This document shows, piece after piece, positions 412 to 26,873 of a stretch of 27,279 bases of DNA. The translations under genes and the position numbers were made by a program. Position 1 is the stretch's first letter. Each line of letters opens with the position of its first letter. The stretch is from a virus. The stretch covers positions 1 to 27,279 of the IMG/VR virus record IMGVR_UViG_3300024520_005967. The stretch is one strand, 5' to 3'. The notes beneath the pieces were generated by a model. That model was not told the origin of the DNA. It saw nothing but the letters and a program-made list of their open reading frames with translations, and searched no databases.

Positions 412-717
412 TCACCTCCTCGGCTGATACTCGACGTGGAGGTGAGTATCTTCAAGCACGACGTCGAAGTCCTCGCCGAGATTCTCCTTTGCGGCAGTGG
501 CAACAAGCTCGGCAGAGTACTCGTCGAGATCCCTGGTCCTGAAGTCGAGTGCGGCTCCTGCGTAGTGGAGCGAGGTAGTCGAATGCCTCGAGTCCGAGCC
601 GGAGGTGATGACGCAGTCGGCACCGATCGCGGTGAAGCACCCGGCAACGACGAGCGAAGCCACGGCCATCTGTGGCTGCAGAGACGCGAGCTTGACGCCA
701 GGTTTCAGTTTCATCAT
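412..717 (-). CDS. Minimal M15/VanX-type peptidase, likely endolysin
   Basis: A 101-residue protein that fits a zinc peptidase of the M15 (VanX / L-alanyl-D-glutamate peptidase) fold, which cuts peptide cross-links of peptidoglycan. The visible signature is SLHYAGAALD at residues 49-58 (zinc ligands H51 and D58 by family analogy), then VVLEDTHLH near 86-94, giving the ExxH motif with E89 as probable general base and H92 as third ligand. It has no signal peptide and no wall-binding domain. It is close to the minimal catalytic core, so export would rely on a holin. The start overlaps the stop of the propeller gene as ATGA, so translation is probably coupled. As the only recognisable peptidoglycan enzyme here it is the best endolysin candidate; a virion-associated or host-modifying peptidase is possible. 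Confidence 0.72.
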   Translation of the reverse strand: MMKLKPGVKLASLQPQMAVASLVVAGCFTAIGADCVITSGSDSRHSTTSLHYAGAALDFRTRDLDEYSAELVATAAKENLGEDFDVVLEDTHLHVEYQPRR

Positions 718-2093
718 GGCGCACCCCACGCCGAGGTATCCCCAGACTCGAAGCCGTCGGCAAACACCAGCGACGGATCCGGCGGCGGAGCGAGCAGCTG
801 GTGAGAGTCCAGAATGCTGAAACCTGCCCGGTAAAGGACGTCCCCTGGGCCGAGTCGGCCACCGCGCGGCGCGAAGGCGTTGAAGCCTGGACCTCCTTGA
901 GGGGGAGCCCCGCAGTCCTCGTAGTACCAGCCCCAGTAGCCTTCGGGGTGGCCCTGGGGAGTCAGCTCGACCAGGGCGGCCGGGTCGCTGGCGTCGTAGA
1001 GGTATTCCCGTTGCGGGACACAGTTGCCGAAGATCTGTGTACTCCCCACGTAGAGGTAGGGCTTGCCGTCGGCGCCGAAGGAGACGGAGACGGTGGTCGG
1101 AGCGACGACGGAGCTCGTGGAATAGACCGTGGGGGTCGGCAGCGTACACGCGCCGGCGTTGGTGATGCAGCTCACGTCGTAGACCCAGAGTTTCCCAGCG
1201 GTGCCTACTTTCACCGGAATCGCCAGGTAGTGACTGCCGCCGTACTCCCACATCACCGTTTCCCCGGTGCCCGAAATGCCCGAGAGAGTCCCCGTGAGCT
1301 TGATCGGCGGGGAGCCGCCAGGGAACGAGGAGATGTTCGATGCGTCGAGAATCGAGATCGACACGAGGTTCCGGTAGACTACGAAATCGCCGGTTCCGCC
1401 GATCGCCACGGACGCTGAGCTTCCGGACATCACCACCCCTTTAGAGACCCCAGGGCAACTCTGGTCCTGCTCATGGCACGAATCGAGGGCGGCGGCGGCG
1501 GTCAAATCATAGAGGCGAACAGTCCCACCGCTGAGCGCGAAAGCGTAGGCACGGGCTCCGATCGCAGCCACGTAGAGGTAGCGCACGTATACGTCACTGT
1601 CCCCGTAGTGGTAGCCGACGTCCCCCTTGTTGCTCGTGTCCCAGACGATGAAGCCGAAGTCTTCGGCCCCGGTCACCACCACGTTCGAGTTGCCTTCGGG
1701 CACGCCGATCGAAGTGATGAAGGAATTCTTGTCGGTGAAGTGCCACCAGGTGATCTCCTCCGAGGCATCGACAAAGCCGAAGGCGATGGGCGCCGTCGGG
1801 GCGGAGATGTCGTAGAGCTTCATCCCCTGGCCGGTGGCCGTGAAAAGGTAGTCTCCCTCGACGGCGAGCGCATGCCAGAAAGGAGTGTCGCCTGGCTCGC
1901 CGTCGACGTGGGTCGAATCGCCGAGTACGCGGCGGGCGTCCCCTGTGAGCGTGACGGGTTGGAGGCGTTCGCCCCACCGGGAGGCCTCGACGGATCGTGC
2001 CGGGGTGCGGTACGGCTCGAAGACGAGCTCGGGCTCCTTGGGGGCGGCGGCGGCGAGGAGGAGGCTAGCTGCCGCCAGTGCGATAATCCTCAT
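714..2093 (-). CDS. Secreted LVIVD-repeat beta-propeller protein
   Basis: 459 residues. The N-terminus MRIIALAAASLLLAAAA is a clear signal peptide with likely cleavage near residue 17-18, so the product is exported. The body has repeated units such as VEGDYLFTATGQGMKLYDIS and VRLYDLTAAAAL, matching the LVIVD or WD-like pattern of beta-propellers. Cysteines (SCHEQDQSC, CITNAGAC, and others) could form disulfides outside the cytoplasm. The C-terminus carries FADGFESGDTSAWG, a short conserved tail seen at the ends of many exported bacterial proteins. Its start overlaps the stop of the lipoprotein gene as ATGA. This is not a normal virion or lysis gene. It is more likely a host-derived accessory gene (moron) acting at the cell surface or in the medium. 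Ligand and function are unknown. Confidence 0.7.
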   Translation of the reverse strand: MRIIALAAASLLLAAAAPKEPELVFEPYRTPARSVEASRWGERLQPVTLTGDARRVLGDSTHVDGEPGDTPFWHALAVEGDYLFTATGQGMKLYDISAPTAPIAFGFVDASEEITWWHFTDKNSFITSIGVPEGNSNVVVTGAEDFGFIVWDTSNKGDVGYHYGDSDVYVRYLYVAAIGARAYAFALSGGTVRLYDLTAAAALDSCHEQDQSCPGVSKGVVMSGSSASVAIGGTGDFVVYRNLVSISILDASNISSFPGGSPPIKLTGTLSGISGTGETVMWEYGGSHYLAIPVKVGTAGKLWVYDVSCITNAGACTLPTPTVYSTSSVVAPTTVSVSFGADGKPYLYVGSTQIFGNCVPQREYLYDASDPAALVELTPQGHPEGYWGWYYEDCGAPPQGGPGFNAFAPRGGRLGPGDVLYRAGFSILDSHQLLAPPPDPSLVFADGFESGDTSAWGAP

Positions 2094-3019
2094 CGCTTCG
2101 CCACCGCTTCGAGATCGCTCAGCAACAACTGCCCGAGCCTCTTGGGACCGAGGTCACCTCCTAGCATCGGGTCAGCCTGCGTAACGAGCCAGAGCCAGAC
2201 ATGCTCGACGTGAGACCAGTAGACCTCCCCTTCGAAGGCCTCGCTCGGAGCCTCCGGGTGGAGCCGGTGCCAGTTGGCGTGAGCCACGGCGACGTCACCG
2301 CGGCCGCTGCCGATGACCTGAGCGCGCATCGCCAGCCACCAGCCGGAGAGCGGCGGCGGCTCGTCGCCGGTGTGGTAGAACTCGCCGTCGTAGACGGCGG
2401 TGACCAAGCCCGCCGCGCGACGGCTCAGCTCGCACCAGCCGCCTCCGTAGCCGTGATCGGTGGCGCACCAAGGGTGCTCGTGCGGAGCCACGAACGGCTC
2501 ATCGAGAGCGAGAGGGGCCAGGACGTCTGGGCTGATGGCCATACGGGCGTCTGCCCCGGTCCATCCGAGGAGCGGCGCACACGGGACTCCCGGAGGGCAT
2601 CTCCTGGCCATCTCGAATCGAACCGCGCGCGACTTGGAGGCCCAGTGCAGGGCGACCTCTTGGGCCGTCAGCTGGTCCGGCCGCACCCTTCCGAAATTCC
2701 AGTAGTCAACGGCGATCGGATTCGGACCGAGAAACCAGCGTTTCAGCGCCTTGTCGGACGGACGGCTTGACGCAGGGATGCCGGAGATTCCTCGGCTGCT
2801 CATACCCTGGGGTCCCAGGGCCGCGACGGGGAAGCTCGGGTTGGTCTTGGCCCACCAATCCTCCCAGCTGCAAGCGCTGGAGCCGGAGATCTCACAGGCG
2901 AGTTTCCACTCGACGAAGTCCTTGGCGGGTTCGGTGATCTCCGGGGGTAGACTTGCGCAGCCGACGGTAAGGACGGCGAGAATGAGTACGAAGGCGATAG
3001 TGGTGTCTTTGGGGTTCAA
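2090..3019 (-). CDS. Putative lipoprotein of the lysis/accessory region
   Basis: The start is taken as TTG at 3019 because AAGGAG sits 7 bases upstream. This gives MNPKDTTIAFVLILAVLTVGC, a short lipoprotein signal with Cys21 as the lipid site; the lipobox TVGC is close to the consensus but not perfect. A longer upstream reading is open but has no signal sequence at its N-terminus. The mature part of about 289 residues contains several Cys (ACEISGSSAC, RRCPPGVPC, and the Cys pair near HPWCATDHGYGGGWC) and is rich in Trp and His, as in a periplasmic enzyme or binding protein. No family is recognised. It lies between the lipase and propeller genes and overlaps the latter by 4 bases. An outer-membrane spanin role was considered, but the protein is much longer than known o-spanins. 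Confidence 0.6.
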   Translation of the reverse strand: MNPKDTTIAFVLILAVLTVGCASLPPEITEPAKDFVEWKLACEISGSSACSWEDWWAKTNPSFPVAALGPQGMSSRGISGIPASSRPSDKALKRWFLGPNPIAVDYWNFGRVRPDQLTAQEVALHWASKSRAVRFEMARRCPPGVPCAPLLGWTGADARMAISPDVLAPLALDEPFVAPHEHPWCATDHGYGGGWCELSRRAAGLVTAVYDGEFYHTGDEPPPLSGWWLAMRAQVIGSGRGDVAVAHANWHRLHPEAPSEAFEGEVYWSHVEHVWLWLVTQADPMLGGDLGPKRLGQLLLSDLEAVAKR

Positions 3020-3101
3020 GAGCAATCTCCTTTTCCAAGATGAATCGAACGAGCTGAGCGAGCTCGCTGGCGGTTTCGCCGATGGCCTCACGCGGGGACA
3101 T
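2892..3101 (-). CDS. Possible small gene overlapping the lipoprotein start
   Basis: An open frame of 69 codons starting MSPREAIGETASEL overlaps the end of the lipase gene by 14 bases and the lipoprotein gene by 128 bases in another frame. GAGGAG lies about 11 bases before the ATG. The first 35 residues look like a normal helical peptide; the rest is very rich in arginine, as expected from an alternate reading of the lipoprotein gene. It may be a real short peptide that delivers ribosomes to the TTG start, or a chance reading. An embedded Rz/Rz1-like layout came to mind, but the peptide has no membrane segment. Confidence 0.33.
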   Translation of the reverse strand: MSPREAIGETASELAQLVRFILEKEIALEPQRHHYRLRTHSRRPYRRLRKSTPGDHRTRQGLRRVETRL

Positions 3102-4787: not shown

Positions 4788-4815
4788 ATTATAGCCGGCG
4801 TGACTAGGAAGTCAA
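4788..4815 (-). promoter_or_regulatory. Strong sigma70-type promoter
   Basis: On the minus strand: TTGACT at 4815-4810, a 16-base spacer, then a perfect TATAAT at 4793-4788. Transcription would start near 4781, about 28 bases before the ATG at 4753. The -35 overlaps the end of the HTH gene. The -35 is part of a short dyad, TGACT-TCCT-AGTCA, which could be an operator. It would express the accessory and lysis group separately from the structural block. Confidence 0.75.
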
Positions 4816-5379
4816 GGCCTTTCTCTCTTGAATGAAGACCTCCCCCGCCCCCTCCTTCCCGGCAACGAGAATCTCAATGAACCGCGCCGCGTCCATCCCC
4901 TCGCCCTCGAGCAGGGCCGGAAGCTTGCGGCGCAGCTGCATGAGCTCGGCTTCCCCCATGGTCAGCACCAGCTCGGCGACCTGGGCATTGATCTCGATCT
5001 TGACCGGGCCGTCTACCCCCCAGAGCTTACGCCGTGACGCCGAGAGCTTCACGAGGGCGTTTTGCCAGCTGATAAACTCGTCGGTATCCACGTCGGCACG
5101 ACCACAGGACGGGCACTTTTCCTGCTCAAACTGCAATCCGAAGTCCCGGCGGACCTTTTCAAGCCTGGCGTCCTCGATGCCTCTGACTTCCTTGGCGCGA
5201 GCGAGGTCTTCTTCGTCCATCACACTGAGCCGCGCGTTGACGTCGTGCCAGGACGTGGACTTGTCGACCCCGTGGTGCTCGGCGATCTGCTCGTAGGTCC
5301 AACCGTCGAGCTTCAGGGCGAACGCATCGGACCTGCGTTGCTCGCGAGCGACGGCGGTCACTCTGGCCGCTTTACCCAC
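4804..5379 (-). CDS. HTH protein, small terminase subunit-like
   Basis: 191 residues from a GTG start at 5379. The frame is open to 5571, but the upstream part reads like non-coding DNA and contains the promoter, so the start must lie after 5449. Residues 19-48 (FALKLDGWTYEQIAEHHGVD then KSTSWHDV) form a clear helix-turn-helix like those of small terminase subunits and sigma region 4-like factors. A long charged helix follows (residues 55-85), then CPSCG at 89-93 and a C-terminal helical part. In phages such proteins recognise the packaging site, yet no large terminase gene follows here, so a regulator is an equal possibility. It has its own promoter and an overlapping 14-codon leader. Confidence 0.62.
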   Translation of the reverse strand: MGKAARVTAVAREQRRSDAFALKLDGWTYEQIAEHHGVDKSTSWHDVNARLSVMDEEDLARAKEVRGIEDARLEKVRRDFGLQFEQEKCPSCGRADVDTDEFISWQNALVKLSASRRKLWGVDGPVKIEINAQVAELVLTMGEAELMQLRRKLPALLEGEGMDAARFIEILVAGKEGAGEVFIQERKALTS

Positions 5380-5416
5380 CGTGGCCGCCCTCGGTCGCTG
5401 CGGTTTCCTCTGACAT
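5372..5416 (-). CDS. 14-codon leader peptide
   Basis: ATG 5416 with GAGGAGG 5-6 bases upstream opens MSEETAATEGGHGG and stops at TAA 5374-5372. The stop lies just inside the GTG start (5379) of the HTH gene in the neighbouring frame. This is the strongest ribosome binding site in the area and no equally good one serves the GTG. Either the peptide couples translation to the HTH gene, or the ATG is the real start of that gene and the frames join by a slip or a base error at the GGTGGGTAAA run. Confidence 0.5.
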   Translation of the reverse strand: MSEETAATEGGHGG

Positions 5417-5448
5417 TGGGGCCTCCTCGAGGTTCCTTGTCCAGAGGC

Positions 5449-5477
5449 ATCATAGAGCACCGGTGGCCAAACGTCAA
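5449..5477 (-). promoter_or_regulatory. Strong sigma70-type promoter of the HTH gene
   Basis: TTGACG at 5477-5472, 17-base spacer, TATGAT at 5454-5449 on the minus strand. Both boxes differ from consensus at one position. Predicted start near 5442 gives a leader of roughly 14 bases before the GAGGAGG of the 14-codon peptide. Confidence 0.72.
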
Positions 5478-5607
5478 GAAGCGCCCGGGGCCTGAGTCCC
5501 AGAGCGCCGGCGTGGTGGCCAGAGATCTGCCCGGCCGGCTTCAAGGACCGACCGGGCACGGGCAGGGGCATGGACTCACGCTTTGGTTGAAGCCCTGCCG
5601 CACACCG

Positions 5608-22829: not shown

Positions 22830-23282
22830 TTATCGGGTCGGGAACCCGCCCCAGGCCGACCAGTTGGCACCGGTTGCGATGGTTCCAGAGATGACGGAAT
22901 AGCCTCGGAGGTAGCGGTAGACCGTCCCGTCGACGTCGTTGTGCCCGTAGAGCAGGTACTCGCCCACGGTGCTGTCGACATCAACGCCCCCGACGAGAAC
23001 CTCGTTGGCCCCGAACTCAATGCACGCGAGCTGGACAATGGTCGAGGCGAACGTCGAAGACGTTGACCCTTGGATATAGAGCCGATAGAGCTCATCGTTT
23101 GAAGCGATCTCGATCGCAGTGAGCTTGATGGACACCACGAAGGGCGTCCAGGCCACACCGGGGCCGAGGTCGATGATCTGATTTGAGCCGCCGACCTGCC
23201 ATGCCGCGGTCGCGGCGATCAGGCCGGCGTCCTTGAGCTGGAAATTGATGTCGGGAGTGATTTGGGGCATCGTGCTTGCCAT
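22830..23282 (-). CDS. Capsid cement protein, Bbp16-like
   Basis: 150 residues from ATG 23282, with AAGGGG 6 bases upstream; an upstream open reading has no ribosome binding site and lies inside the capsid gene. Features NQIIDLGPGVAWTPFVVSIK, STSSTFASTIVQLACIEFGA and the C-terminal TVYRYLRGYSVISGTIATGA match the outline of Bbp16-type capsid cement proteins (IDLG near the start, then strands, then YLR-Y---G-I--G). It lies just after the major capsid gene, the usual place. Role: trimeric or dimeric decoration that stabilises the capsid. Assignment rests on motif outline only. Confidence 0.6.
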   Translation of the reverse strand: MASTMPQITPDINFQLKDAGLIAATAAWQVGGSNQIIDLGPGVAWTPFVVSIKLTAIEIASNDELYRLYIQGSTSSTFASTIVQLACIEFGANEVLVGGVDVDSTVGEYLLYGHNDVDGTVYRYLRGYSVISGTIATGANWSAWGGFPTR

Positions 23283-24222: not shown

Positions 24223-24996
24223 TCAAGCCTCGGGTGACGACAAGACCTGGCCCAGAAAGGCTGCAGATCCGGCGTCGTGGGCCAGCGTGCCGTCGGTTGA
24301 CTCCGTCGTGCTTGAGAGGCCGCCCCCCCTGCCCTTGACCGGGAAGAGGGCCTTCCACTCACCGCCCCGCTTCTCCTCGACCAGCGCGCCCACCGTCTCC
24401 GAGGGCATGGCCGTCTTGGTCGCCGGGTCCAGAATCTGGAGCTGCGGTACGTCGCCCCTCCACCACTCGACACCGTCGTCCCCTTCTTTGGGGATGACGA
24501 ATGGCATGGCGGCCTGTTTCAGGGTGGGGAAGAAGATCGGGTCAACCGTCGGCTCAGCCTTGTAGAGCTCATGGGAGACATGAGAATCGAGCAACTTGTC
24601 GACCAGTAGCTCCTTGTCGGCCTCGGCGGCGGCGGCGGCCCTCTCGAGGCGAGAAACTCGCCCCTTGAAGTTCGCCTCGAGCCCTTCGAATTTCTCCTTA
24701 GCGAGCTCGGACGCCAGCTTTTCCACGGCCTCCGCGTCGACGCCGGCTGCGGTAGCCTTGCTCGCCGCCTCCATCGTGAGAACCTTGGCGCGAAGCTCGG
24801 AAAGCTCGTTGCGCCTGGCCTTGTCGGCATCGATCAGCTCGGAGTTTTTGTTCTTCAGACCCGCGGTGACGTCCTCAACGCCCTGGGCCGCGTCAACCGC
24901 GGAAGTCTCGATCCCTTGCAGGAGTCGCTTCACCTCGTCGTCGTCGGCCGCGTCAAAGGCGGCCCGTAGCTTCTGTATCGCTTCGGTTGTGCTCAT
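24223..24996 (-). CDS. Scaffold/head assembly protein
   Basis: 257 residues from ATG 24996 (AAGGGG about 11 bases upstream); the frame is open upstream to 25086, but that part crosses a hairpin and the plus-strand promoter. Residues 1-150 are charged helical and coiled coil (KLRAAFDAADDDEVKRLLQG, NELSELRAKVLTMEAASKAT, RVSRLERAAAAAEADKELLV), typical of scaffolds. The C-terminal 100 residues (HELYKAEPTVDPIFFPTLKQ, EWWRGDVPQLQILDPATKTA, GGEWKALFPVKGRGGG) are more globular and probably bind the capsid protein. It is the first gene of the capsid block, directly before the capsid gene. Confidence 0.8.
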   Translation of the reverse strand: MSTTEAIQKLRAAFDAADDDEVKRLLQGIETSAVDAAQGVEDVTAGLKNKNSELIDADKARRNELSELRAKVLTMEAASKATAAGVDAEAVEKLASELAKEKFEGLEANFKGRVSRLERAAAAAEADKELLVDKLLDSHVSHELYKAEPTVDPIFFPTLKQAAMPFVIPKEGDDGVEWWRGDVPQLQILDPATKTAMPSETVGALVEEKRGGEWKALFPVKGRGGGLSSTTESTDGTLAHDAGSAAFLGQVLSSPEA

Positions 24997-25033
24997 GTGG
25001 CTTGTGTCCCCTTGGGATGGTGCCGGGTTTCTT

Positions 25034-25049
25034 GACGCGTCTTCGCGTC
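25034..25049. other. Perfect hairpin between scaffold gene and plus-strand cassette
   Basis: GACGCG-TCTT-CGCGTC; on the plus strand it is followed by TTTCCTT, so it would resemble a weak terminator for plus transcription, while on the minus strand it sits about 38-53 bases upstream of the scaffold start and could shape the 5' leader of that mRNA. No plus-strand gene is upstream of it, so the leader role fits better. Confidence 0.45.
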
Positions 25050-25066
25050 TTTCCTTAGGGTCCAAG

Positions 25067-25087
25067 CTTGACCCTGGGGCCGTCAAG
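25067..25087. promoter_or_regulatory. Inverted repeat, candidate operator
   Basis: CTTGAC-N9-GTCAAG, perfect 6-base arms. It overlaps the -35 box and spacer of the plus-strand promoter, so a bound protein would block it. The HTH-like product of the same operon (25785-26225) is a natural candidate ligand; this is inference. Confidence 0.45.
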
Positions 25088-25096
25088 GGCTATCCT
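25068..25096 (+). promoter_or_regulatory. Sigma70-type promoter of the plus-strand cassette
   Basis: TTGACC at 25068-25073, 17-base spacer, TATCCT at 25091-25096. Predicted start near 25103 gives a leader of about 30 bases before ATG 25134, with AAGGAG at 25121-25126. The spacer has the optimal length. Confidence 0.68.
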
Positions 25097-25133
25097 TACG
25101 GATCATGGACACGCCAACCTAAGGAGACCAACG

Positions 25134-25379
25134 ATGAAGAGCTTTGACCCGCACGATCCCTATGACGGCCACAGCGGTACGCCCTCGCCACCTTCCAGAG
25201 AGGAACACGCGGAACGCGACCGCATCGCCAGGCAGCGTGAGACCTTCTCACTCGCGCGGGAGATTTTCGCTCGCCGTGGTGGCGAACCCGGGTTCGCCCT
25301 GCAAGCGGCCGATGGCTTCTTCCTGGCCGCAAAGACCTACTTTGCCGAACAGCCGGAGCCCGGTGAGGACGGCCAATGA
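25134..25379 (+). CDS. Small hypothetical protein, first gene of plus cassette (81 aa)
   Basis: Starts MKSFDPHDPYDGHSGTPSPP at ATG 25134 with AAGGAG 7 bases upstream, and stops TGA 25377-25379. The N-terminal 25 residues are polar and probably disordered. Residues 25-75 are helical (REEHAERDRIARQRETFSLA, REIFARRGGEPGFALQAADG), with pattern compatible with a small helical bundle. No membrane segment. It is expressed from the promoter at 25068-25096 and overlaps the next reading frame as ATGA. Small proteins at the start of phage early or immunity-type operons are often regulators or anti-defence factors, but nothing specific is visible. Confidence 0.7.
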   Translation: MKSFDPHDPYDGHSGTPSPPSREEHAERDRIARQRETFSLAREIFARRGGEPGFALQAADGFFLAAKTYFAEQPEPGEDGQ

Positions 25380-25474
25380 CCATCGTCGAGGGAATCATCT
25401 CTCTTCGGCCCTGGAAACGGCGCCAGGTCCACCTATACGACTCTTACATGACCGGCGACGTCGTCCCGCGCTAG
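25376..25474 (+). CDS. Tiny coupled protein (32 aa)
   Basis: ATG 25376 overlaps the previous TGA as ATGA. The peptide MTIVEGIISLRPWKRRQVHL and 12 more residues ends at TAG 25472-25474. It has a short hydrophobic N-terminus and a basic middle and could be a small membrane-peripheral or regulatory peptide. The coupling overlap is the only support; no own ribosome binding site is obvious. Confidence 0.45.
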   Translation: MTIVEGIISLRPWKRRQVHLYDSYMTGDVVPR

Positions 25475-25483
25475 CGCTTGGAG

Positions 25484-25555
25484 ATGAAGGCGCTGAGAAA
25501 GCGGCGGAGGCGCAACCGAATCGCGCGACTCTCACGGCGGCGGAACAGGGCATGA
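25484..25555 (+). CDS. Possible 23-codon strongly basic peptide
   Basis: ATG 25484 opens MKALRKRRRRNRIARLSRRR plus three residues and ends in TGA, overlapping the next ATG as ATGA. GGAG lies only one base before the ATG, too close for normal use. Composition is extreme (13 Arg/Lys of 23). It may be a real coupling peptide, or the region may only be the leader for the next gene. Confidence 0.25.
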   Translation: MKALRKRRRRNRIARLSRRRNRA

Positions 25556-25788
25556 TTGCGACCGGGCACCCGGAACCAATGGTCATCATCGACGTCAGCG
25601 GTGACGCGCTGGAAGTCGTGCACCAATCCGCTACCGAGAGTAGGGTCCCCACGGTATCGCTCGCTCTCGATAGTGCCGACAGCGTGTGGCTAAATCTCGA
25701 TCAGGCAACGTCCTTGAGGGACTGGCTCAGCGCCTGGATCGTGGCCGAAAAATCATCGGACTGCGGCCCCATCGAAGACTCGGCATGA
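25552..25788 (+). CDS. Small hypothetical protein of plus cassette (78 aa)
   Basis: Starts MIATGHPEPMVIIDVSGDAL at ATG 25552; the frame is open upstream but without a start codon or binding site. The sequence alternates strand and helix (PMVIIDVSGDALEVVHQS, VPTVSLALDSADSVWLNLDQ, ATSLRDWLSAWIVAEKSSD), a small alpha/beta fold. It ends TGA 25786-25788, overlapping the HTH-like gene as ATGA. The pattern V-L-x-L-x-x-x-D-x-V-W-L-x-L-D-x-A-x-x-L-x-x-W-L is seen in many small phage proteins of unknown role. No catalytic residues are evident. Confidence 0.6.
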   Translation: MIATGHPEPMVIIDVSGDALEVVHQSATESRVPTVSLALDSADSVWLNLDQATSLRDWLSAWIVAEKSSDCGPIEDSA

Positions 25789-26225
25789 GCAACTCCCCTG
25801 CGCCTCGGGGTCCATTGGGGCCCATGGAACCAACCAAGGCGCAACGCGACGCCCTCAGGAGTCTCCTGCAAGCCGCCAAGAGGGCTACCGGTCTCTCGTA
25901 CAACCGCCTCTCCGACAAGGTGTCGGACCTTCTCGGCGATGGCGATGGCCCGGACGAGTGTTACATCCGCTGGCTTTGCAATGGACCGCCGAGGCCTCTG
26001 TCGTCGCCGCTCTGGGCCGGGGCTATCTTCGCCGCCCTGGGAGTGTCCTGGACTGACGTGCTGCGCATCCTGGGAGGGACGAGTCCGCCGGGGTCGATCG
26101 TCTTCACCGAGGGAGCTCGCCGGCTCGTCGTGTCTGCCGCAGACGTGGACGCCCATGGATACGCCTGGCTGCGCTTGATCATCGAGGCGTGGTCAAGCCG
26201 GAGCCGCCGGACTCTCACCGGGTAA
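25785..26225 (+). CDS. HTH/XRE-like DNA-binding protein, putative regulator
   Basis: 146 residues from ATG 25785, coupled to the upstream stop as ATGA; a second start at 25824 (MEPTKAQRD) is possible. Residues about 18-75 (RDALRSLLQAAKRATGLSYN, RLSDKVSDLLGDGD, YIRWLCNGP, LWAGAIFAALGVSWTDVLRI) have the helix arrangement of XRE-type repressors: a helix, the turn TGLSYNRLSDKV, a recognition-like helix and a final L-G-V-x-W-x-x-V-L helix. The spacing between helices is longer than in lambda-type repressors. The C-terminal part (FTEGARRLVVSAADVDAHGY, RLIIEAWSSRSRR) is small. It may repress its own promoter, which contains an inverted repeat. It could also be an antitoxin-like protein. Confidence 0.58.
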   Translation: MSNSPAPRGPLGPMEPTKAQRDALRSLLQAAKRATGLSYNRLSDKVSDLLGDGDGPDECYIRWLCNGPPRPLSSPLWAGAIFAALGVSWTDVLRILGGTSPPGSIVFTEGARRLVVSAADVDAHGYAWLRLIIEAWSSRSRRTLTG

Positions 26226-26281: not shown

Positions 26282-26371
26282 TGGGGCCCCTGCGGGAGTC
26301 GAACCCGCCAGCGCACGCCGCGACGCCAGGAGTCTAACCCCGACTCGGCTCGTGGTCAAGCCAAAGGCTCC
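26282..26371 (-). tRNA. Degenerate class II tRNA-like cloverleaf
   Basis: On the minus strand, a perfect T-arm lies at 26308-26292 (GCGGG TTCGACT CCCGC). Upstream are a perfect 5-base stem with 7-base loop (GAGTC GGGGTTA GACTC, 26346-26330), a 4-base D-like stem (GGCT/AGCC, 26362-26347), a 21-base variable region, and an acceptor pairing 5 of 7 (GGAGCCT with AGGGGCC). CCA appears near the 3' end at 26284-26282. Against a working tRNA are the missing U33, no GG in the D-loop, two acceptor mismatches and the offset CCA. It may be a decayed tRNA, a tRNA mimic or part of an attachment site. The rest of the 26226-26387 gap holds only a CCCC/GGGG hairpin after the plus-strand stop. Confidence 0.35.
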
Positions 26372-26387
26372 CGCCGGCCTTGAAGCG

Positions 26388-26873
26388 CTACTCGGTACGC
26401 CCTTGGCCAAAAACCATGAACTCCGTCAGGTCGGATAGGTCGTCCCGGACGGTAAAGCGCAGTCGGCATCCAGCCGCCAGATAAAGCGGCTCCCCGAGAC
26501 CCTTTGAGAGATTCCACCCGACCGGCATCGAATCGTCGCCGGCGGCAGTGATCACGGTGTTGTCTACCCCAGAAAGAGCCGCCCAGTCCGCATTTTTGAC
26601 GATGGAGGCCCCGTCCAGGAAATCGACCACGACAGCGCCGTCAGAGTCGACCGCCCTCACCAGCAGGCCGTTCGACAGCTCCGACAGCCCGCCGAACCTG
26701 CCAGGGGTCATGCTTCCATCGATGATCGAGGCGTTGACCCGATAAAGATACAGCGGTCCCGTAGGTGCGAAGATATCGAAATCGACCGCGGGCGAACTGC
26801 CGTCGACGGCCATTTTAGTAGAGCCTGCGCTGTCGTGGGCGTACTGAAAGAATGCTGCCGATGGCCTTGCCAC
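26388..26873 (-). CDS. Virion-like hypothetical protein (161 aa)
   Basis: GTG 26873 with AGGAGG 6 bases upstream, immediately after the previous stop. Starts MARPSAAFFQYAHDSAGSTK. The body is beta-rich (PLYLYRVNASIIDGSMTPGR, LLVRAVDSDGAVVVDFLDGA, PLYLAAGCRLRFTVRDDLSD), resembling small virion decoration or fibre-tip proteins. Ends FMVFGQGRTE. It belongs to the minus-strand structural transcript that enters from the right edge. No precise family is recognised. Confidence 0.68.
   Translation of the reverse strand: MARPSAAFFQYAHDSAGSTKMAVDGSSPAVDFDIFAPTGPLYLYRVNASIIDGSMTPGRFGGLSELSNGLLVRAVDSDGAVVVDFLDGASIVKNADWAALSGVDNTVITAAGDDSMPVGWNLSKGLGEPLYLAAGCRLRFTVRDDLSDLTEFMVFGQGRTE

Follow-up and report, generated by a model that had tools for sequence, protein, structure and literature searches.

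A putative self-transcribed accessory operon of orphan genes divergent from the scaffold gene of an uncharacterised phage

Introduction

In the Mu-like phages of P. aeruginosa, the accessory region RGP G is located immediately upstream of the scaffold gene. Among the D3112-like members of this group, the region harbours an acr-aca locus, and it is lettered just before RGP H, which maps between the protease-scaffold and the major head genes (PMC4378225, PMC10155984). Such acr-aca loci follow a characteristic layout, with the small effector genes first, a gene for an HTH protein last, and a core promoter that contains inverted repeats (PMC9410906). A broader class of phage cargo is that of the morons, accessory genes with a promoter of their own inserted between late genes, as described in lambdoid phages and in the Mu-like phages of P. 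aeruginosa (PMC4378225).

The locus reported here shares traits with both systems. As in the case of morons, it shows an independent (predicted) promoter, lies among head genes, has no role in the core module and occupies a slot of patchy and varied content. Unlike morons, it is a multi-gene operon instead of a single gene and would be transcribed against the late genes, and it also differs from most of them in lacking a clear terminator and a deviant GC content, two features that are usual in morons, not required. As with acr-aca loci, the cassette carries small orphan genes first and a probable HTH gene last, in an accessory region of a phage, and its predicted core promoter, which lies no more than 150 bp from the first start codon, shows an inverted repeat that taken alone is within chance. 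The differences from acr-aca loci are its antisense orientation, the lack of detected similarity to known Acr or Aca proteins, and the putative character of both its HTH domain and its repression.

Four plus-strand frames with coding character

The DNA analysed (hereafter the window) comprises the 27,279 bases of IMG/VR record IMGVR_UViG_3300024520_005967, from an uncharacterised phage. The following frames make up the cassette:

25134-25379, plus strand: frame 1, 81 aa, acidic, pI 5.1
25376-25474, plus strand: frame 2, 32 aa, basic, coupled to frame 1 through an ATGA overlap
25552-25788, plus strand: frame 3, 78 aa, acidic, pI 4.1
25785-26225, plus strand: frame 4, 146 aa, basic; 133 aa from the internal ATG at 25824

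The frames of 81, 32, 78 and 146 residues proposed for this place in a first-pass annotation were all recovered. Coding scores and gene calls were obtained with a codon model built solely from the late genes of the window itself, which gave frames 1 to 4 scores of 17.5, 12.9, 17.8 and 25.4, respectively, towards the low end among the genes of the window. Frame 4 obtained a better coding score when started at the ATG at 25824 (133 aa) than at 25785. A gene caller with no information beyond the window retrieved exactly these four frames and no opposing one.

Wrong-strand open frames abound in this DNA. Outside the cassette, the window holds 229 non-genic ORFs, 12 of which score at least 12 (10 of them on the plus strand) and three at least 18, figures that would agree with frames left open by chance where GC-rich DNA separates late genes. 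However, only about 0.5 ORFs with a score of at least 12 are expected per 1.1 kb by our own estimate, which makes four consecutive frames on the same strand unlikely by chance. Moreover, the four run at 12.9-25.4 with coupled junctions, and no minus-strand frame accounts for these 1.1 kb, which would otherwise be devoid of genes although the phage contig is tightly packed. Chance is therefore a most improbable explanation, and the four frames are likely to be genes as judged from their coding statistics. The GC content of the segment (61-66%) is like that of the rest of the window and thus gives no sign of recent acquisition.

The frames had been described as a chain linked by ATGA overlaps, perhaps with a 23-residue frame in it. 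Two of these junctions are real, at 25376-25379 (frames 1 and 2) and at 25785-25788 (frames 3 and 4). The 23-residue frame (25484-25555) shows a coding score of -7.8 and an Arg-rich product with a pI of 12, is best read as an off-frame shadow and was discarded as a gene, which leaves frames 2 and 3 separated by 77 bases, so the chain is not coupled throughout. The reading of frame 3 remains open and protein-like back to 25474, where it has no start codon (p ~0.06), and this start-less stretch may be due to chance, to a frameshift or to a sequencing error. The 77 intervening bases, protein-like in sequence, could correspond to a decayed or frameshifted gene.

Such a break raises the alternative that the whole segment is a relic, a partly decayed stretch of early genes with no present function, in line with the start-less reading upstream of frame 3, with coding scores towards the low end of the window genes, and with the adjacent tRNA-like element described below, which is also defective. 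However, none of the four frames has lost its start or stop, the first is preceded by a strong ribosome-binding site, the promoter match is good, and the break itself reaches only p ~0.06, all of which make a relic a quite doubtful reading.

Genes on either side of the cassette

The cassette is flanked by the following features:

24223-24996, minus strand: scaffold gene, 257 aa (PHROG 206, head scaffolding, E 7.5e-6 over 24223-25005)
26283-26369, minus strand: tRNA-like element (ARAGORN tRNA-Thr; perfect T-arm, poor acceptor pairing)
26388-26873, minus strand: late gene to the right of the cassette, 161 aa

The start of the scaffold gene was set by its Shine-Dalgarno sequence together with the gene caller. 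To the left of the cassette, the major head gene matches PHROG 212, and a decoration-type gene (22830-23276) is common to many relatives. The product of 26388-26873 aligns at 27.6% over its length with an ORF located downstream of the capsid gene in relatives L042/L093 (E ~0.01), and it probably derives from a minor structural gene. The cassette had been said to run against the surrounding late genes, and it does so, with scaffold and head genes to its left and a probable structural gene to its right.

The element at 26283-26369, a tRNA-Thr according to ARAGORN, was downgraded to tRNA-like given its poor acceptor stem and its Rfam result, in which the top family, tRNA-Sec, scored 23.3 bits and thus fell short of the gathering score (47). 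It could be either a decayed tRNA or the remnant of an attachment site. An imperfect direct repeat (26188-26213 / 26351-26380, CGTGGTCAAGCC...CCGCCGG.CT) connects the end of frame 4 with the 5' half of this element, and it is a possible duplication.

A predicted promoter and candidate operators in the divergent region

The leftward scaffold gene and the rightward frame 1 are separated by a region of 137 bases (24997-25133), in which the following elements were detected:

25034-25049, plus strand: short hairpin ahead of the promoter, weakly terminator-like
25052, 25093 and 25118-25125 (inverted), no strand assigned: three copies of a TCCTTA(G/C)GG-like motif around the promoter, candidate second operator
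25067-25087, no strand assigned: inverted repeat CTTGAC-N9-GTCAAG covering the -35 and the spacer, candidate operator
25068-25096, plus strand: sigma-70-like promoter TTGACC-17-TATCCT (consensus match)
25121-25126, plus strand: AAGGAG, the Shine-Dalgarno sequence of frame 1, at 7-8 bases from its ATG

An optimally spaced promoter had been announced for this region, and the site at 25068-25096 agrees with it, with 9 of the 12 consensus positions and a spacing of 17 bp. Two sigma-70-like sites occur in 2.5 kb versus 0.3 expected in shuffles, and the cassette would have a predicted promoter of its own, distinct from the late operon. The ribosome-binding site of frame 1 is stronger than those of most genes in the window. 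As for termination, the two terminator-like hairpins of the region are not significant against the 1.4 expected in shuffles, and a consensus scan revealed no terminator-like site after 26225, the end of frame 4.

The inverted repeat over the -35 and spacer claimed previously is indeed present at 25067-25087, but at least one 6-bp inverted repeat is found in 25% of the dinucleotide shuffles of the 128-bp stretch, so this repeat taken alone is within chance and was set aside as evidence of an operator. The three 6-bp inverted repeats observed occur in only 2.2% of the shuffles. A family of three 9-mer copies with at most one mismatch, like that of the TCCTTA(G/C)GG-like motif, the last copy of which overlaps the ribosome-binding site of frame 1, appears in 5 of 300 shuffles, a post hoc count. 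Altogether, these post hoc repeat statistics of 24997-25133 are suggestive of operators.

Orphan products and a weakly HTH-like last protein

The small products had been described as outside any recognised family, which holds for every library and collection searched, with no meaningful match in any of them. Frames 1 to 4 gave no meaningful match in PHROGs or Pfam, and frames 1, 3 and 4 gave nothing meaningful beyond chance in NCBIfam, PADLOC, IMG/VR or phage records. No homology to known Acr or Aca proteins was detected in Pfam, NCBIfam, PADLOC, PHROGs, phage records or PDB sequences, all of which are general libraries. Searches with frame 4 against plasmids retrieved only matches with E values of 0.3-4, mostly within chemotaxis proteins, and those against 398 genomes a single match (E 7e-4) with an internal stop, which is expected by chance at such a scale. 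At the DNA level, the segment showed no match to phages.

Frame 4 had been regarded as HTH-like. Neither Pfam (E<=1) nor PDB sequences (E<=10) offered a match for it, HTH_3/Xre-type families included. Its predicted helices span residues 5-22, 26-37, 43-53, 62-72 and 76-83, and AlphaFold2 run on the single sequence modelled a domain of five helices with a pLDDT of 58 (50-58 among all frame 4 models). Foldseek retrieved only meaningless matches for the full model (E>=1) and no significant match for the domain models (E>1). The structures ranked highest by Foldseek and VIA-align are mostly Xre, CI and C-protein domains, all of them weak, with Z values of 5.2 for 2ef8, 4.8 for 3b7h, 4.6 for 3eus and 4.0 for 1lmb, the best one (5.2) corresponding to C.EcoT38I. 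By eye, the sequence is read here as an Xre-like domain with a lengthened turn. The models suggest a weak resemblance of frame 4 to the HTH domain of lambda-repressor type, and the predicted fold supports, without proving, a DNA-binding role. The earlier reading is thus backed by the five-helix model and by the Xre/CI-type structures at the top of the ranking, whereas the lack of a profile match and the low pLDDT speak against it.

The coupling of frames 3 and 4 through an ATGA overlap is also compatible with a pair of the toxin-antitoxin kind, in which frame 3 would be the toxin, frame 4 an Xre-type antitoxin and autorepressor, and frames 1 and 2 passengers. A toxin followed by an HTH antitoxin is a gene order known in some type II systems, and it has been likened to that of acr-aca operons (PMC9410906). 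However, the searches with frame 3 retrieved no family of toxins from Pfam or NCBIfam and no match at all from PADLOC, and its product is acidic (pI 4.1), unlike RNases of the RelE/HigB type, so that a toxin-antitoxin pair seems very unlikely.

An antisense slot before the scaffold gene in distant relatives

The capsid protein of the window is ~30% identical to those of Caulobacter, Ruegeria and Microcystis phages. Alignments of the capsid and decoration proteins yielded ~190 loci in all, which after removal of near-duplicates left 138 capsid loci. In 101 of them, the sequence extends for at least 2.5 kb on the upstream side of the capsid gene. Genes in the relatives were called with a simple codon-bias caller, which may have erred on some of the small ones. 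Of these 101 distinct relatives, 19 (the window included) showed antisense genes in the 3 kb that precede the capsid gene, mostly just before the scaffold gene, versus 8 of 91 in the 3 kb that follow it, an enrichment of marginal significance (Fisher p 0.06). The other 82 relatives have no antisense genes in the slot, and many relatives carry portal or head genes directly before the scaffold gene.

The antisense content of the slot is diverse. Genes similar to HTH_17/excisionase occur in two independent cases, L035 (the same as L094; E 1e-14) and L113 (E 3e-7), and other cargo comprises a Dam methylase (L088), RtcB (L090), HNH (L038), a Lar/endonuclease-like gene (L016) and a ferritin-like protein. 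The RtcB RNA ligase (4507-5727 of L090, E 2e-78) lies antisense before the scaffold gene of a low-GC relative. Antisense cassettes of tiny genes, mostly without known families, directly precede the scaffold gene at 4876-6464 of L073 (seven genes) and at 4652-7053 of L027 (nine genes). No detectable relationship was observed between the slot cargo of the relatives and the products of the window, and hence the slot is reused while its content is not conserved. The stretch upstream of the scaffold gene is, as judged from these genomes, a cargo (moron) slot, and its cargo is accessory in kind.

A comparison of presence and absence among related phages had been proposed as a check of the cassette. 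It revealed a recurrent slot (19 of 101), but neither relatives of the cassette nor its exact empty insertion site were found among relatives with at most 36% capsid identity. The capsid query alone retrieved no close relative in IMG/VR, with alignments reaching only 36% identity. L035 was also considered as a close relative and rejected, since its tape-measure similarity (46%) is confined to one stretch, which we take to be a widespread tail domain.

These relatives bear on another alternative, that of a local divergent regulator whose HTH product would bind the 137-bp region and control the leftward scaffold-capsid promoter and its own operon, or act as the immunity repressor of a temperate phage. 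The cassette and the scaffold gene diverge across 24997-25133, with repeats over the region, and unrelated HTH_17/excisionase-like genes diverge from the scaffold gene in L035/L094 and L113. These are likewise small HTH genes in the same slot, but single genes of MerR/excisionase type with no similarity to frame 4. In the Ruegeria phage vB_RpoS-V10, an antisense gene annotated as a transcriptional regulator lies just after the head genes. It also opposes late genes and neighbours a capsid gene of distant relationship, but it is a single gene of 208 aa that follows the minor capsid genes instead of preceding the scaffold. Against a divergent regulator, no promoter-like site for the scaffold gene was found on the minus strand of 24997-25133, the HTH frame is the last one, ~0.8 kb from the scaffold gene and not adjacent to it, no integrase was detected among the window proteins searched against PHROGs, and most other relatives have no HTH gene in the slot. 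A divergent regulator is accordingly considered unlikely.

Other genes of the window

A frame of 101 aa at 412-717 (minus strand), the top scorer among the non-genic ORFs, resembles an M15-type peptidase by eye, and its product has no PHROG match. It is probably a real gene, possibly an endolysin. The gene at 714-2093 (minus strand) encodes a protein of 459 aa with a bacterial-type signal peptide and, by eye, a C-terminal FADGFESGDTSAW motif, which is typical of some bacterial secreted proteins. It is translationally coupled to the late gene at 2090-3091, an odd arrangement in a phage operon. At 4804-5571 (minus strand), a protein of 255 aa matches the PHROG family 'Rnase E' (E 7e-15), with weaker matches to DNA-binding proteins and regulators.

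Discussion

The explanation that we favour, with slightly more than even confidence, is that 24997-26225 constitutes a self-transcribed moron operon that occupies a cargo slot and whose last gene probably represses it. The coding character of the frames, the matches to a promoter and a ribosome-binding site, the divergent placement between late genes and the recurrence of antisense cargo in the slot were all observed. This segment would be an accessory operon that lies right before the scaffold-capsid genes and diverges from them, and its own promoter of sigma-70 type would allow expression while the late operon is silent or before the onset of late transcription. Frames 1 to 3 would encode small effectors acting on the host or its defences, whereas the product of frame 4, at the end of the operon, would bind the promoter repeats and repress the operon once enough of it has been made, resulting in a burst of expression followed by shut-off, as in acr-aca operons. 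We infer transcription, the HTH fold, autorepression and any effector role.

Anti-defence and host takeover are common roles for cargo of this kind, and by analogy either is a possible function of the cassette. The first-pass annotation pointed to an inserted regulatory, immunity or anti-defence cassette. The coding statistics and the comparison with relatives support an inserted antisense cassette among head genes, with an independent (predicted) promoter and a probable regulator in last position; no product match favours any of the three functions. Calling it an undescribed unit was an overstatement, as the sequences are orphans but units of this kind, moron cassettes in which a promoter and small genes precede a final HTH gene, are well described, and many relatives use the slot. 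In any case, the cassette is probably real and functional cargo of orphan effectors in a recurrent slot. Phages commonly show a layout of this sort, and what is new are proteins that match nothing known. A stronger version, in which a general slot for antisense cargo would hold an autoregulated operon with three wholly new small anti-defence or host-takeover proteins and an Xre-like repressor of a new type, is rather improbable as it stands.

The cassette would leave the current ideas of phage genome organisation unchanged, and it would add new families of small proteins. If the stronger version were true, the slot could be mined across the capsid lineage for undescribed anti-defence genes. 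And if the slot truly serves for cargo in this capsid lineage, which is widespread, it would provide a simple genomic address for small anti-defence or regulatory genes in uncultured phages where homology fails.
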